From positions 1-39,071 of the IMG/VR virus record IMGVR_UViG_3300034283_002486: a DNA stretch of 39,071 nt, one strand, 5' to 3'. The translations under genes were made by a program, and so were the position numbers. Under the pieces are notes generated by a model. That model was given only the letters and a program-made list of their open reading frames with translations. It was not told the origin of the DNA and made no database searches. Shown piece by piece: positions 3,801 through 35,900 of this stretch. Every line of letters starts with the position of its first letter. Positions within the stretch are counted from its first letter, which is position 1. The DNA comes from a virus.

Positions 3801-4389
3801 TGCTTGTTAATTGTTTATACTTCAGCGTGATGGTTCGTTGGAAGTTTTCAGTGCCTTGAATAAAGTTGTCCAAGGTTTTGTAGAAGTAACCACCAGCATC
3901 GTGTCTATGTAACCAGCCACGAGTAGACCATAGCAATCCTTTGATCTTGAAACCACGAATTAAATCGCAAGATGTTTTGATTTCTACTGCTTCATAATCG
4001 TACAATACATGAAGTCTATGTAGGTTGACATCTTCTTCTCCTTCAAAGTAAAGAGCCAAGTCTACGCTGTGAGGATTTTTCATAGCGTGCTCGTCTTCAA
4101 ACATCTTCGAAACACCGGATGAACTTCTTCTCCAATGCAAAGCAAGACTGACCGGACTGAACTCACGATTGAATTCATTCAATTGAGAGTTGTACTCTAT
4201 CCGCAATTGCTGTGCAATAGCTTTGTTGTGTTCGAGTATGGATTTTCTAAATGCTTCCGTTTCCTCGATGTCTTTTTTGACAGAGTCAATTGTGAATTTA
4301 CCCTTGGCAGGTGTAGTGGAATTTAACTTTTTGAATTCTTTTTCTAAGTCAGAAAGTAATTGGTCTTGAAATGTTGTTAGATAACTCAT
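3793..4389 (-). CDS. Hypothetical protein, 198 aa
   Basis: The N-terminal ~75 residues (MSYLTTFQDQLLSDLEKEFKKL...) are strongly helical and probably coiled coil. The rest is a mixed domain with HWRRSSSGVSKMF, YFEGEEDVNLHRLHVLYDYEAVEIKTSCDL and GLLWSTRGWLHRHDAGGYF. No family is recognised. One of the longer proteins in the block, it overlaps the 77-residue gene downstream by 8 bases. Confidence 0.65.
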   Translation of the reverse strand: MSYLTTFQDQLLSDLEKEFKKLNSTTPAKGKFTIDSVKKDIEETEAFRKSILEHNKAIAQQLRIEYNSQLNEFNREFSPVSLALHWRRSSSGVSKMFEDEHAMKNPHSVDLALYFEGEEDVNLHRLHVLYDYEAVEIKTSCDLIRGFKIKGLLWSTRGWLHRHDAGGYFYKTLDNFIQGTENFQRTITLKYKQLTSNG

Positions 4390-5387: not shown

Positions 5388-5660
5388 TTATAAATGTCCT
5401 CCGTATGTAATCTTTCCGTTTTCTTCTACATCGTATCGTGACTCCGACTCTTGGTCTATCCAATCCATATCATCGCTGAGACCGAAGCCGAATTCGTAGG
5501 GTGCTTCGCTTAACTTCTTGTCTAACACAGCTGTGAATAGATGGTCGTTCTCCAAAATCCAATCATGTACTTTGTCAGCAGGGATGTGTTCGGGAACATT
5601 GACAATTACCGATGCAGTTTTGTGATAAACTGCTCTTGTGGTGATGGTTACTTTTTTCAT
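5388..5660 (-). CDS. Hypothetical acidic protein, 90 aa
   Basis: A beta-strand-rich N-terminus (MKKVTITTRAVYHKTASVIVNVPE) is followed by a short helix (DKVHDWILEN) and an acidic tail (LSDDMDWIDQESESRYDVEENG). It resembles a small DUF-type sheet with an acidic extension, as seen in DNA-mimic or sensor proteins, but no motif proves that. It sits between the Api92-like gene and a 90-residue gene, with gaps under 20 bases. Confidence 0.62.
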   Translation of the reverse strand: MKKVTITTRAVYHKTASVIVNVPEHIPADKVHDWILENDHLFTAVLDKKLSEAPYEFGFGLSDDMDWIDQESESRYDVEENGKITYGGHL

Positions 5661-15225: not shown

Positions 15226-15256
15226 CAAATATACAACTTTATGTCGAAAAACAAAA
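15226..15256 (-). promoter_or_regulatory. Minus-strand promoter of the SSB/exonuclease operon
   Basis: On the minus strand TTTTG (15252-15256) is followed by an 18-base spacer and TATATTTG (15226-15233), the same arrangement as the ncRNA promoter. Transcription would start near 15219, ~40 nt before the ssb start. The -33 element lies inside the first codons of the divergent gene, so the two promoters cannot be occupied at once. Confidence 0.72.
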
Positions 15257-15660
15257 TTTCTTTAGAAGAAATCGATAAAAAAATTTCTGAGATCAAGTCA
15301 CAAGAGTTTTTTCTAGCCGTAGAAAACAAGAAAATTAGCGAGTTGAAGAAAGGGTACTACTACGAAATGGTAGATAAAAGATTTTCACTCATGGCTAAGA
15401 ACCTTGCTTTCAATCTAGACTACTTAGTCAAGAAGCATAACATCGTAAAGGGCATGCTTCACGCCAGGGTTTATGATAAAACCGGAATATTTGATTATGC
15501 GTTCAGCGACTATCAGCTGTACAATCCAGAACACTACAATACGCACAACATTCTAAAGTTTGCCATGGCGTTCGGATTCACTTTCAACATAAGCTTTCTG
15601 GACCTTATCTTATATCGTTTGGACTACCTTGAGAAAAAAAATTTCGTAGGAACGTTTTGA
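15241..15660 (+). CDS. Putative Cro/CI-type regulator, 139 aa
   Basis: The ATG at 15241 (MSKNKISLEEIDKK) is chosen over an upstream in-frame ATG at 15196, which would lie before the promoter box. The N-terminal 45 residues are a charged helix or coiled coil. Residues ~51-72 (MAKNLAFNLDYLVKKHNI) resemble helix 1 of Cro/CI domains. Residues ~103-121 (NILKFAMAFGFTFNISFLD) resemble the usual 'tLlkla.alg.sldelL' final helices. The recognition-helix region between them is atypical. A regulator placed on a divergent, overlapping promoter pair would fit an early/late switch. The function is inference. Confidence 0.6.
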   Translation: MSKNKISLEEIDKKISEIKSQEFFLAVENKKISELKKGYYYEMVDKRFSLMAKNLAFNLDYLVKKHNIVKGMLHARVYDKTGIFDYAFSDYQLYNPEHYNTHNILKFAMAFGFTFNISFLDLILYRLDYLEKKNFVGTF

Positions 15661-15685
15661 TTTTTGAAAACTGACTTTATATTTG
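15655..15685 (+). promoter_or_regulatory. Strong promoter of the intergenic ncRNA
   Basis: TTTTG at 15655-15659, an 18-base spacer, then TATATTTG at 15678-15685. This is an exact Bacteroidetes-type match with the same spacing as the SSB-operon promoter. The -33 element overlaps the TGA of the regulator gene. Transcription would begin near 15690. Confidence 0.75.
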
Positions 15686-15689
15686 CGGT

Positions 15690-16019
15690 GTCGGAATGGG
15701 CGGAAAAATAACGATGGCGTTCCGGTGTAAAGCGTTACCATGGGATTTCAGCAAAGCGCAGCGGTGGCACAAAGAGATGAGCCGTAGGACTGAAAGGGAG
15801 GTGCAAAACTCTCGAAAGTGGATCTCAAGCCAATAAGCAAGCACGACTTATTGGTGTATGTTGGGGGGCGTGTACGAAGATGTACCCACAGCAACGGTGA
15901 CTAACTCGATAGACTTTTATCGGGATAGCTCACTGTATGCCGGAGAACACCCCAAAGATGCATATTGGATAATACAAATACACTCTTATGTGTATTAAAA
16001 GAATACTTCGTATTCTTTT
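15690..16019 (+). ncRNA. ~330-nt structured RNA of unknown class
   Basis: The ~390 bases between the regulator and the next gene have no credible frame. They are bounded by a strong promoter and an intrinsic terminator. Helices visible by pairing: 15690-15696 with 15720-15726; GAGAT with ATCTC (15775/15822 region) enclosing GGGAG with CTCTC; CCAATAAG 15830-15837 with 15847-15854; a CGGTGA/TCACTG stem enclosing CGATA/TATCG (15895-15935); GGGG near 15863 with CCCC near 15950; and AATACAC/GTGTATT at 15977-15996. It lacks the conserved cores of RNase P, tmRNA, 6S and group I/II introns as far as can be judged by eye. Confidence 0.72.
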
Positions 16020-16023
16020 TTTT
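15977..16023 (+). terminator. Double-hairpin intrinsic terminator of the ncRNA
   Basis: Two hairpins abut: 15977-15983 with 15990-15996 (7 bp), then AAAAGAATAC 15997-16006 with 16010-16019 (10 bp, UUC loop). The second runs directly into an 8-T tract. It separates the ncRNA from the virion genes. Confidence 0.85.
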
Positions 16024-16332: not shown

Positions 16333-16365
16333 TTTGTTTTTTATAAACTTATTTCACTATATTTG
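16333..16365 (+). promoter_or_regulatory. Promoter upstream of the portal gene
   Basis: TATATTTG at 16358-16365, with a TTTG ending at 16336 about 21 bases upstream. The box ends 23 bases before the portal ATG, the longest such gap on the plus strand, giving a short leader of perhaps 15 nt. Confidence 0.65.
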
Positions 16366-16388: not shown

Positions 16389-18641
16389 ATGTTATCAATA
16401 AAAGACCAACCAAAACAATTTGTACCCGAGAAAGACAAGAACGCTATTTGGTTCAAAGAGAACATACAATACATAGCCGAAAAGTATAATACACAACAAA
16501 ATCAGCTGGGGTATCGGACACCTCAATCTTGGGACAAACCAATAGATGAAATGATCCGCATGTTTACCTACTACCTAGGTAAACAAGAAAACCGTGATTA
16601 CTACTATTCAACACAAGACGCTGATAACTGCAAGTTACCTCACGTCTGGATAAACGGTCAAAAATTAACTTCAATGATAGACTTCATGTTAGGAAGTGCT
16701 ATCAAAATGATTGAAAATATCGAGCCTACAGTTCGTGGTACATCCAAAGCTTTGATTTCAAAGAAAAATGAAATCTATCAAATGGCTTTGAGTAAAATCA
16801 TTCTTAAAGAAATTGCAGATGCAATGTCAGAAAAAGGCGTTGAATTCAATCCTACCGGAATGGTTAATTTTGAAAACGAACAGGATCTTCAGAAGTACAT
16901 GACGTATGATTACAAAGAGTACTCAGAAGAAATTGCTCAAAGGTTGGCTGAAGACATTCTTTACAGAAACAAGTTTATCGAGAAATACAAACAGGCTTTC
17001 CTGTATTTAACTCTTGGTGGTGTAATTGGTATTGAGAACTACATTAAAAAAGGAAGACAGATCAAAGAAGTTATCCTTCCTTACAACTTGATTTGGGATA
17101 ACACAGTCGATGATGATTATAATTCAAGAGCTCAGTTTGTAGGAAAAGTTGACTGGTACACACCAGGTGAAATTCTTTCTAATCCTGACTTCATGGCTTA
17201 TCTTTCTCCGGCAGATATAGAAGAGATTAAAACTGTAAATACTCAGACAATCGACAAAATGCTCGGAGAAGAATACATCAGTTCAAACCAACTTCGCTGG
17301 TGGTATAACTGGAGCGGTGTACCTAAGATGGCATGTGTTACCGGTTACTGGGTTGGCTACAAAGAACTACGTTACGAAAAAACCAAAGATCAGTATGGCA
17401 ATGAACACTTCTCTAAAACTAGAAAGAGAAGTAACTCTCAATACTGGGTTAAGACTGTTTATAAAGGAACCCTCATAGCCAACAAGTATATGGTCAATTG
17501 GGGTGAAACAAATAACATCGTTAGAAACTTTGATGATAAGAATGAAGTTGAACTTCCAATTAGTGTGTTTCTTCCTAACATGGTTATGGGCGAAACACGT
17601 TCTATTGCATCGAGGCTTCATAAACACCAGGATAGAATTGACTATCTGAACTACGAAATCACAAAAGCTACTGACCGGGCCAAGGGAAAAGTGTTTATTC
17701 TAAACAAACACAAACTTGGCTCTGCTACCCCCCAAGAAGTTCTCAACGACTTTGAGAGAATGGGTATTCATATTACAGACGGAAACGCCACAGGTGAAGA
17801 TTACAATAACAATGACAATAACCGTATTGTAGAAGTAGTTGACATGACACTTGATCCAAACGTTCGTGAACTTATCAACTTGAAGAGAGAAGAAGAACGT
17901 ATCATGGAAGAGATTGTTAACGTTCCAAAAATAGCTATGGGACAGCAGCAAGGCTATCTTGGTGCTAAAACACAGGCAGGTTCCATTGCCCAGTCAAACC
18001 TAGGTACAGCTTACCTTTACCAAGGTTTTATTCGTTTCATTGAAAAGGATCTTCAGTACGCATTGAATCAATATAAAGTTTCTCTTCTTTCTCTCAAAGA
18101 AGAGGGAGTTGGATTACTTGACGACAGAGGATATGACTTCTTAGAAATTACCGATGAAGTTAAGTTCGAAGATTTTGGTGTATACATAAAGGTAAAAGAC
18201 TTTTTGGACGAACAGGCAAAAGAAAGATTACTCGCTATCGCACAAGCTGCAATGCAGAACGGTCTTATTGACATGCGTGATTATATTAAGATCGAAACAT
18301 CTAAGTCTTACACAGAACTTCTCAAAGAACTTGAATACTCTATGGCTAAGAAAGATATGGAGAAAAAAGAAGAGATGCGTAGACAACAGATCATGCAGGC
18401 TGCTCAACAAGAAGCCATGATGCAAGCTCAAATGCAACAAGCACAAGTTGCACAAGAAGGTTCGAACTATCGTCAAGAACTCAAGGCCGCTTCTGAGGCA
18501 GTTAAAAATGCTAGTCCAATTGAACAAGGTGTTCCGGAAACCCCAGGAGCTATGGAAGAAGCTGCCAATCAGGCCGTGGCAGAAGAACCTCAGCCTGGTG
18601 ACGAAGTAGTTGCCGGACCAGAAGCAGCTGGTGCTCTTTAA
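16389..18641 (+). CDS. Portal protein, crAss-like, 750 aa
   Basis: Portals form the dodecameric DNA channel at one capsid vertex. Size (750 aa) and position before the scaffold- and capsid-type genes fit crAss-like portals. The N-terminal domain starts with helices (ENIQYIAEKYNTQQNQL). A wing-type region contains YLTLGGVIGIENYIKKGR and VILPYNLIWDNTVDDDYNSRAQFVGKVDW, a typical portal strand cluster. A long helical stem-like region follows (HKHQDRIDYLNYEITKATDRAK). Then come a MGQQQGYLGAKTQ loop and helix, and a Met/Gln-rich helical tail from ~residue 650, which ends in an acidic, Ala/Pro-rich extension. No frameshift is seen. Confidence 0.85.
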   Translation: MLSIKDQPKQFVPEKDKNAIWFKENIQYIAEKYNTQQNQLGYRTPQSWDKPIDEMIRMFTYYLGKQENRDYYYSTQDADNCKLPHVWINGQKLTSMIDFMLGSAIKMIENIEPTVRGTSKALISKKNEIYQMALSKIILKEIADAMSEKGVEFNPTGMVNFENEQDLQKYMTYDYKEYSEEIAQRLAEDILYRNKFIEKYKQAFLYLTLGGVIGIENYIKKGRQIKEVILPYNLIWDNTVDDDYNSRAQFVGKVDWYTPGEILSNPDFMAYLSPADIEEIKTVNTQTIDKMLGEEYISSNQLRWWYNWSGVPKMACVTGYWVGYKELRYEKTKDQYGNEHFSKTRKRSNSQYWVKTVYKGTLIANKYMVNWGETNNIVRNFDDKNEVELPISVFLPNMVMGETRSIASRLHKHQDRIDYLNYEITKATDRAKGKVFILNKHKLGSATPQEVLNDFERMGIHITDGNATGEDYNNNDNNRIVEVVDMTLDPNVRELINLKREEERIMEEIVNVPKIAMGQQQGYLGAKTQAGSIAQSNLGTAYLYQGFIRFIEKDLQYALNQYKVSLLSLKEEGVGLLDDRGYDFLEITDEVKFEDFGVYIKVKDFLDEQAKERLLAIAQAAMQNGLIDMRDYIKIETSKSYTELLKELEYSMAKKDMEKKEEMRRQQIMQAAQQEAMMQAQMQQAQVAQEGSNYRQELKAASEAVKNASPIEQGVPETPGAMEEAANQAVAEEPQPGDEVVAGPEAAGAL

Positions 18642-32978: not shown

Positions 32979-35900
32979 ATGCCAGAAGATAAAAAACCTC
33001 AACCGAAACCTATCGTTTCTGCAAATAAAAAAACTACTCCAGAACAAGAAGCCATTTTAAAGAGATTTACCGGTGGTGCTGTTGGCACTAGTACCACTGA
33101 AGATGAACTTAAGCCTAAACCCAGGATAACGACTGGAGGTGGATTCAAGGAAGAGGCTAAAGTAAAACCTCTCACATCAGAGCAAAAATCTTTATTGACA
33201 AAAACCAGTACCAAAACAACTGAATTGTTTGGTACACCTCAAGAATTCAAAAAAGGTATAAAGGAAGCAGAAGCTCGTCAACTGGAACGAGAAACAGAAC
33301 TTTCCAAAATAAGCGAGTTGGGTTACATGAACGTGGAAAATCTTTACACGGTTCTGAAAAACGATGAAACAGGTCAGATTGATTTAGGTGGTGGTTCACG
33401 TATAAGAAGTTCTGAAGAATTGGATTCTTATCTTCAGAACCCCGGGAATATAAGACCGCTGTTTTTTCAGTACAAAGACAAAATTGGCCAGTACTTTAAA
33501 ATAGCAAACGATTCTGATTTTCAGAATGTTTTGTCCGGTGGTGTCAGCATGTACGACAAAGGTGCATTTAGAACTGCTGCAGAAGGTGGTGTAGGTAGAA
33601 CTATATTTGATCCAGAATTTACTAGAAAATATGAGACATACTACGGCAAAGAAGTAGGTGTTGGAATGCCCGGCTATAGACCAGAGTTTGACAAGATGAA
33701 TGTCGATCCAGTGTCTCAGAAATACAAAATAGCTCAAAGAGACTATCAAGCTAGACAGATGTTCGACATGGTTGTTCAGAAGGGATTGAACAAAACTGCT
33801 TATGGCGAAAATATAAGTGATTACAAAAAGTATTACGATTACATTTTGGATCCTATTAATCGTGATGCTTATGGTAGAAAGTACAATAAAGAGATAAAAG
33901 CTGCCGGATTAGAAAGCGCACAAAAGATTTTAAAGGACAGTAACATATTCATCGATGCTGCTCTTGGTGCTGGTTTGGCTCGTGCTGAAGATCAGACAAA
34001 CATGCGTATTGCCAAGGCAGATGATCTGATAGCCCAGGACTTAATTGGTAATGCAGCTACTGTTTTTAACGATGGTGAAAACAAATCGATCGCTAGCATA
34101 GAAGAAGAAAACCTTGGTAAATTGGTTTGGGAACAAGAAGTTGGTAACTACGTTAGCTACGATGTTGACCTTGCTGGATCGACCACTCCAAACCTAGAAT
34201 ATTCTACGGTTAGATACGGTAGTTTTGACTATGATCAACTCGTTAAAAAACTAGAACAATCTGGTTTAGAAGGAGATGAGATTCCAGAAAGATTAGAATA
34301 CTATAAGACCAAGTATCTAACTAAAGTAACACAGGGAAAATACAATGAAAAGAGACTTAAACAGGGTTTCTTTGTTGATCCTACAACTGGAATAGAATAT
34401 TCCAAGTATGATCAAGCCATGGATCAAAGAGCTATATCAAGTCTGTCACCAAAAGAACAGAAGATAGCTACTTTGTACAAACAGATTGGTGATATCATGG
34501 CTACTGCCCAAACCAAAGACAAAAAGAAGACAGCGATATCTCCACAGAGTTTGGCTCAAATTAATAGTCTGAAATCCCAGATTGAACAATTGAAAAAAGA
34601 GCTTGGGGTATCAGGTATAGAATTTTACGATGCTTCCGGCAAAAGATACGAAGGAGAACAAAAAGATTTCGCACAAAAAGTATATAACTCTACGTTAGCT
34701 GCTGAAAAGAAAACAGATTTAGCCATAATCAAAGAAAAGCGAAACGTCCTTTTTGAAAAGAGAGATTGGATTGAAAATCAAATATCGAAACTAGGATCGA
34801 CTTCTGGATTACAATCTTTAGATCAACCTGCTATTCTTCCGGCAGGTATGACAGAAGACGATATAGATGCAGCACTGGAACAAAATCGTGGCTTCTGGTT
34901 TAATTTATATGCTAATACGCTCGGTCAGCTAGGTCAACCTGATATGCGTTCGCTTGGTCAAAAGATATATGCGTATAAGTTGATGAAACTTAATCAACAA
35001 ATGACCGAAGTAGATGCTCAGTTAAAAGCTGCAAATACGCTTATTCATTTGAATGTTGATTTGACCAAGGGCGAATCTGAAGGTGTATTTTCCGGTGCGT
35101 TTTCAAAGACAATCAATGAAACAAAAAACATTTTTTCAGATGATGTATATCTTACACCCAATGAAGAAATTGTTCGTGCAGCAAAGTTCTTAGGAGAAAA
35201 CGGATTGTATGTAAATCCGGAAGTTCTAAATGCACAACAAAAAATCATAGAGAACCAAAGTATTTCAGACGGAATACTGGAATCTATGAAAATAGGATTT
35301 TTGATTAGCATGAGAGGTAGTGGTGCGACAAAGAACTTACAACAACTTTTCACAGGAAAGTCCGCAGTAGCGGTTAGGTCCTACATGGCTGATAGATATG
35401 GAAAAACAGGTATTGGAGTATTTAATGTAATTGAAAAAGCTGTTGTTGATTATGGTGTTCCTTTCTTTGCTTATGAAGTATCTGGCCAACCTGGAGGAAT
35501 GGGTGTTGCAGAAAAAATTGGATCGAAGGTATTTGATAAAACTACAGGAGTACTAAAGCTCGGAAAATTGATTCCATCGAATAAAATTGGTGCTCTTTTA
35601 TATGTGATGGGTAAAAAGCTGTCCATGGGTACAGCTAGTTTGACAGAAGAGACTTTTTCTAATGTTTGGGAATATGCAAAACAAAATGGATATGATTTTG
35701 TAGATGCAACTAAGAATTCATATGGAACTACAACAGATGAACGATTATTGAATTTGAGAGCTACTGCTTTGATGTGTTTTACTTTTTCTACTTTAAATTT
35801 TGAAAATCTAAATCTTTTGTATGCAACACGACAAAAGTTTCAAGCGCATCTTGACAAAGTATATGGAGAAAATACATCTAGTACAGACGAAGAAATTATT

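Follow-up and report, generated by a model that had tools for sequence, protein, structure and literature searches.

A structured RNA gene beside a phage portal gene, with paired direct repeats and a possible role at a replication start

Between a proposed regulator gene and the portal gene of a phage lies a stretch of about 330 bases, read in an earlier note as a self-contained structured RNA gene. The locus raises three questions: whether an RNA gene is present, to which RNAs it is related, and what it does. The window is the whole stretch of DNA analysed, 39,071 nucleotides of IMG/VR record IMGVR_UViG_3300034283_002486. Coordinates are those of the window; all features described with them lie on its plus strand.

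The phage has a genome of ~64 kb, presumably circular. The same phage is represented by record G001 (64,054 bases), both ends of which match the window at 99.99% identity. Portal, TerL-like, primase-helicase, DNA polymerase and DnaA-like genes are encoded. The gene of the TerL-like protein (612 aa, recognised by eye from Walker-like motifs) lies far from the RNA, and those for primase-helicase and polymerase are ~18–22 kb from it on the circle. The RNA's own neighbours are the regulator and the portal. The proposed position at a genome boundary is borne out: two gene arms diverge at the RNA, and the window family as a whole has it at such a switch. The upstream neighbour is an ORF of 139 aa (15241–15660), the proposed regulator by ORF reading, without PHROG or Pfam match; a far clade has a RusA-like ORF (by eye) in its place. 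The downstream neighbour is the portal gene (16389–18641; PHROG 6547, E 1.5e-50), with its own TATATTTG at 16358–16365. The portal is 21–26% identical to Crassvirales portals, and the earlier label crAss-like is only loosely right. G+C content is 0.50–0.52 inside the RNA versus 0.28–0.42 in the surroundings. The phage also carries a serine recombinase/resolvase gene (L016:11837–12553), which suggests a possible temperate life style.

The RNA is preceded by a Bacteroidota-type promoter at 15655–15685, with TTTTG at 15655–15659, an 18-base spacer and TATATTTG at 15678–15685, exactly as first read. Sixteen related RNAs of the same type (type A, below) were examined for TAnnTTTG. Nine carry it at a fixed −11/−12 from the RNA start (window, L025, L026, L027, L029, L036, L081, L030, L031), three carry it elsewhere within 60 bases, and in four it was not found (L039, L067, L107, L111); the background is 166 of 7,992 sequence windows, or 2.1%. 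The absence of a credible frame is confirmed, the longest stop-free stretch in the six frames of 15691–16022 being 53 codons. An A+T-rich double hairpin with T run at 15977–16023 was proposed, by sequence reading, as an intrinsic terminator. This holds in part: the hairpin at 15999–16017 and the T run to 16023 are present, but the hairpin is not in the output of a G+C-based consensus terminator scan, and by eye a clear terminator is missing in 6 of 14 RNAs, the window among them.

Folding of the single sequence gives z = −3.34 with the terminator and −1.96 without it, in which case 7 of 200 shuffles fold equally well; folding by itself is therefore weak support. Covariation is decisive for a real fold. 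In the alignment of relatives that the earlier note had called for, 15 type-A cores were compared over 23 pairs (345 cells) of P2, P3, P5 and two pseudoknots; the counts do not include P1 or two columns of P2, where MAFFT had misplaced gaps in alignment A5. Of the cells, 98.8% are paired, and 17 of the 23 pairs are changed on both sides. None of 500 shuffles reaches the observed paired percentage, both-side changes or covariation score (0.696, versus 0.313 in shuffles and at most 0.158 with partners slid). The number of further pair types is no higher than in shuffles (476/500). With its own promoter and a covarying fold, 15691–16023 is, with near certainty, a stand-alone structured RNA gene belonging to a family.

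The fold begins with hairpin P1 at 15691–15725 (15691–15698 with 15718–15725), with the conserved loop GGNCGG..AAAAAUAACG. Hairpin P2 at 15732–15759 (15732–15736 with 15755–15759) has the conserved loop UGGGA; its loop bases 15746–15751 pair with 15790–15795 as pseudoknot PK4 (15746–15795), in which 4 of 4 pairs are changed on both sides. Hairpin P3 at 15761–15785 (15761–15765 with 15781–15785), supported by covariation, has the loop GGCACNAAG, of which 15774–15778 pair with 15822–15826 as pseudoknot PK6 (15774–15826; 100% paired, with both-side changes in 4 of 5 pairs). Hairpin P5 at 15796–15813 (15796–15800 with 15809–15813) is likewise supported by covariation. Its loop GUGC (15801–15804) probably kisses the loop GCAC (15841–15844) of hairpin P7 at 15830–15854 (15830–15837 with 15847–15854); the two loop strings, picked by eye and checked by script for pairing only, are complementary in 15 of 15 RNAs, in several different sequences.

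The same place in related phages was followed through an alignment of portals, which yields 79 phage loci, the window's own phage included. In a close relative (L003/L025; portal 84% identical) the RNA is in the same place. There the first 140 bases of the RNA are 86% identical to the window and the 3' part 73%; the flanking ORFs reach 69% and 66% and the portal start 76%. In most closer loci several hundred bases, holding short ORFs at most, separate an ORF of ~140 aa from the portal; in L086–L093 a large ORF fills the slot instead. Type-A RNA is present in 16 of the 79 loci, 13 of them profile seeds chosen by blastn or eye, to which the profile added near-duplicates only. Type B is a different structured RNA with two G6 tracts, found in the same slot of 38 of the 79 loci, a count without two weak profile matches. 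It lies 5' of the portal in L037, L044, L056, L063, L064, L072, L073, L074, L077 and others, and a search of viral contigs finds its signature AAAGGGGGGAAAGGGGGGTATG in 60 stretches. The slots of L032, L034 and L061 are without long ORFs and without profile match to type A or type B.

No known RNA class accounts for the gene. The window is without a match at Rfam gathering thresholds, and ARAGORN finds none. RNase P, tmRNA, 6S, group I and II introns, phage pRNA, ROOL, GOLLD and OLE, which are presumably all included in Rfam, are rejected on this basis, in agreement with the earlier reading that no RNase P, tmRNA, 6S, group I or group II core is visible. An Rfam search of 10 related loci gave two tRNA matches only, and no ROOL or GOLLD. 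The covariance-model search that had been proposed gives, in a permissive scan, a sub-threshold match to RF02932 (Betaproteobacteria-1 RNA), at 15689–15777 with 31.8 bits (E 2.6e-4), under the gathering cut-off of 49.4 bits. This match begins by P1, at the predicted transcription start of the RNA. Model positions 1–85 align in the window, L003 and L026, with two 5' hairpins, conserved loops and GGUGGC; positions 86–116 (31 positions) are skipped in these alignments. Among 50 related-phage records, RF02932 matches seven at E ≤0.1 and none over the cut-off. The motif reportedly originates from a 2017 paper on 224 RNAs.

The likeness to RF02932 extends beyond one weak match. Its consensus pattern is found in 12 stretches of viral contigs; when these and L107 and L111 were scored (14 records), 10 exceeded the cut-off, with up to 112 bits. 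L120 is intermediate, with 41 bits and type-A features, L107 is without a match, and L124, a pattern match, is chance-like on scoring. Rejected as chance are L006, the sole motif-pattern match in genome contigs (a bacterial contig without RF02932 match), and the blastn matches L012–L015 of the RF02932 consensus. In each of the six RF02932 members examined, the bases of both PK4 and PK6 pair (PK4 of L117 by eye). A looser core pattern matches at least 120 stretches; among the matches listed 96 are distinct and 84 have the P2 stem. From these listed matches 74 with P1 and P2 were used further, three re-fetched type-A loci being left out; a few of the 74, for example L321, look like chance. A model built from the 15 type-A RNAs only (R1) was run on 82 loci and matches 27, with E from 1.9e-21 to 0.09. 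Each match coincides with a place found by the pattern, and the unrelated or chance loci in the set have none; R1 misses about half of the other family loci and scores the window at 127 bits, by construction. When 20 broad-family records were searched with RF02932, 16 matched at E ≤0.003, three of all matches over the cut-off; one further match (E 0.9) is chance-like and three records have none.

Because of the shared pseudoknots, the pattern and the R1 and RF02932 matches, RF02932 is best described as a single branch within a larger family of phage RNAs, and the window RNA as a Bacteroidota-phage member of that family. Common to both are P1 with the GGNCGG..AC loop, P2 with the GGGA loop, GGUGGC at P3, PK4 and PK6 (in six members), and the repeats described below, which are present in the RF02932 branch. 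The Rfam model differs in having 120 positions and stopping before X1, P9 and X2. The literature searched, which dealt with Betaproteobacteria-1, structured and portal-linked phage RNAs, and R-loops or pseudoknots at phage origins, gave no description of the family. ROOL and GOLLD, described in PMC12286853 as large, ornate phage-borne RNAs of unknown role, are similar in being ornate and phage-borne; the window RNA is smaller.

The new feature of the family is a pair of direct repeats, X1 and X2. X1 lies at 15876–15885 (GAAGATGTAC) and X2 at 15954–15963 (AAAGATGCAT); in the window they have six exact bases in common, the core AAGATG. X1 is in a loop and X2 at the 3' end of the RNA, on either side of the last hairpin, P9 (15895–15935; GGUGACUA..CUC / GGG.AUAG..CAC). 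In many members X1 follows CUCC(G) and X2 follows CACC(A). The repeat differs between RNAs (AAAAGCUAUUAG, GAGUCUAAU, UCAGCGAU, GGGUGUU, others) and matches within most of them.

In 28 RNAs with hand-picked segments, X1 scores 7.07 against its own X2 versus 4.51 against swapped partners (0 of 20,000 permutations); for the RF02932 subset alone, 132 of 20,000 permutations score as high. Type B has the X1/X2 match despite its different upstream fold, and with fixed zones gives 6.54 versus 5.13 in 37 distinct RNAs (0 of 10,000). In the broad family an identical repeat of at least 7 bases lies in the expected zone in 10 of 17 and 18 of 26 RNAs, versus 8–11% of shuffled or swapped controls, the zone limits having been set after the unconstrained repeat search was seen; it is missing in 7 of 17 and 8 of 26. 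That unconstrained search covered 43 of 77 RNAs, those left distinct after length and 80% identity filters. It gives 8.28 versus 7.08 in shuffles, with a repeat of at least 7 bases in 41 of 43 RNAs versus 70% of shuffles. Examples reached through L118 are Acidovorax phage AP1 (GAGCAGA, copies 58 bases apart) and phage record MW202545 (GGGTATC, 53 apart).

X1 and X2 have changed together in some close relatives, for example L125/L257 and L242/L277; the groups of L246, L265 and L237 gave no result in this comparison, the CUCC/CACC anchors being absent. The copies have drifted apart in L116, L251, L255, L273 and L325, where only 3–5 bases match, and in five of six RNAs of a second cluster (L241–L340), with the same short match. 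Internal mismatches were counted in RNAs with readable context (13 of type A, 23 of the 37 of type B and 27 of the broad family). Of 52, 42 have G in X1 and A in X2 and none has A in X1 and G in X2; one conserved position, CCG before X1 and CCA before X2, dominates this bias, and the 42 are therefore not independent. U/C, which wobble would also allow, is not seen among the 52. Taken together, the sequence comparisons make X1/X2 very likely a real feature. Since type A and type B, with unrelated-looking folds in the same slot, both have the pair, it may be the working part of these RNAs.

Direct repeats within one RNA cannot pair with each other. X1 can, however, pair with the template strand at X2, because the template is complementary to both copies. 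It is proposed that the folded RNA presents X1 in a loop and that, as RNA polymerase passes X2, the X1 of the nascent RNA would pair with the template strand there. A persistent R-loop would be left at the end of the RNA gene, beside A+T-rich DNA. It could serve as a replication start, either through a primer trimmed by RNase H or through a displaced strand on which helicase and primase are loaded. rG.dT is tolerated and rA.dC is not, and one-way G/A mismatches therefore fit pairing with the template. An R-loop at X2 is plausible. The whole chain, from the folded RNA through the X1/X2 R-loop to a replication start, is the best single guess, with a probability of about 0.37. A phage RNA class with an address of its own, a drifting loop sequence of 6–12 bases repeated just downstream and used for recognition of self DNA, is conceivable and on the whole doubtful.

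In plasmid ColE1, according to passages of PMC4412123, an rG stretch of the RNA must pair with a dC stretch of the template. The proposed likeness to ColE1 RNA II, as far as those passages describe it, is that a loop of the transcript pairs with a downstream template repeat to give an R-loop. As in RNA II, an upstream segment of the present RNA matches a downstream segment and can pair with the template; the difference is that X is not a G run in type A.

The replication role is suggested by this analogy, by the A+T-rich DNA after X2 and by the neighbours. For the 70 nearest upstream ORFs, the best 25 PHROG families include 10 matches to repressors, 9 and 5 to HNH endonucleases, three primase families with 7 matches each, and 3 and 3 matches to replication initiation proteins. 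For 65 downstream ORFs, they include ParB-like proteins (6, 4 and 4) and primase-helicase (2). In these counts families overlap and near-duplicate phages are left in. The RNA of AP1 comes after genes with the annotations replication/partition protein, helicase and primase; that of MW202545 is 3' of ParB-like and primase-like genes and overlaps two annotated hypothetical ORFs. In 38 of 43 RNAs the DNA following X2 is richer in A+T than the contig on average, as is usual for intergenic gaps. X2 is within 1.2 kb of an AT-skew extremum in 8 of 9 window-family genomes; the extrema coincide with the gene-strand switch, which could cause them by itself, and the GC-skew minimum is within 1 kb of X2 in only 3 of 9. 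Counted against the chain as a whole are the window's own neighbours, regulator and portal, with the replication genes distant, the short X1/X2 match and the terminator-like hairpin after X2 in the window, the drift of the X copies in some clusters and the broad-family RNAs without a repeat of 7 bases.

Other functions have to be weighed against the replication start. A trans-acting RNA, with X1 and X2 as two seed copies for one host RNA or DNA target or for a phage protein, would explain the identity of the copies and fits a stand-alone promoter and the tolerance of either RNA strand: in L035 (5616–5895) a type-A RNA lies on the opposite strand and points from the portal towards an ORF of 170 aa. 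It is nevertheless rather unlikely, as X differs greatly from phage to phage, unexpectedly for a conserved host target, and such an RNA does not by itself predict one-way G/A mismatches. Moreover, the rest of the phage record contains no complement of the long X (11-, 10- and 9-mers; G067, G071, G079) and thus gives no sign of a trans target within the phage. The possibility that X recurs as a repeat across the phage genome was also considered and rejected: the 11-, 10- and 9-base X have no further copy, and the frequency of shorter X is close to expectation. Control in cis of a following early operon, in which the RNA or its hybrid at X2 would alter the elongating polymerase, has its precedent in the HK022 put and EAR RNAs, structured RNAs of an early regulatory region or operon; the window RNA is larger, with two pseudoknots, X1/X2, and its own promoter and terminator. 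The RNA often follows a repressor/Cro-like gene and precedes an ORF on the same strand (48 of the 65 nearest downstream ORFs, for the family among the matches listed), which makes a leader role possible, and by eye an ATG follows soon after X2 in several phages. Such control is nonetheless unlikely, given the A+T-rich terminator and separate portal promoter after the RNA in the window, and the RNA of AP1 and L118 that stands after, not before, the ParB-helicase-primase genes. The RNA of L035, on the strand opposite to the portal and pointing away from it, counts against such control as well, and makes the late-gene switch envisaged earlier, read as acting in cis, unlikely.

A guide or scaffold RNA of a nuclease or recombinase, similar to omega-RNA or bridge RNA, would have X1 as guide and X2 after CACCA as adjacent target. 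The constant CUCC before X1 and CACC before X2 of many members resemble guide and target flanks, and HNH endonucleases match 9 and 5 of the 70 upstream neighbours. Highly unlikely all the same: no protein was found that accompanies the RNA throughout, the comparison of four RF02932 or bridging phages with the window family giving a few links and none common to all; the two ORFs flanking the RNA in the window are without family match; and the long X has no further copy. Barely credible is an RNA for packaging, associated with the portal or acting as decoy, as the earlier note had suggested. Its place next to the portal in the window family speaks for such a role, and none of the results points to a decoy. 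Homologues in other phages often adjoin repressor and replication genes, which makes a portal or packaging role unlikely; the TerL-like gene is far from the RNA, and X1/X2 would be left unexplained.

Model phages in which the start of replication is known are, to our knowledge, few. The present RNAs form a large family, traceable only to an unexplained Rfam motif of 120 positions and lying, in many phages, within the early region or the replication region. It shows a simple, testable rule, X1 = X2, and its fold, backed by covariation, lends itself to structural study. Should the R-loop reading hold, an RNA mechanism of small plasmids would be widespread in phages and origins would be readable from sequence alone; double-stranded DNA phages would have an RNA-addressed replication start, whose address and target evolve together. 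Otherwise another explanation would be needed for the rule.

Some further features were observed at these loci. One open frame of 4,237 codons occupies G001 29901–42614 and starts at 32979 in the window. An extra 5' unit is present, by eye, in L039 (~5500–5610), L067 (~4190–4300) and L061, consisting of a long hairpin, the loop GGGUUUCUCGG of which is complementary to the next CCGGGGAGCCC, and then a T run. In L084 and L107 an HNH endonuclease-like ORF (by eye) lies in the same gap, 3' of the RNA and on the opposite strand.
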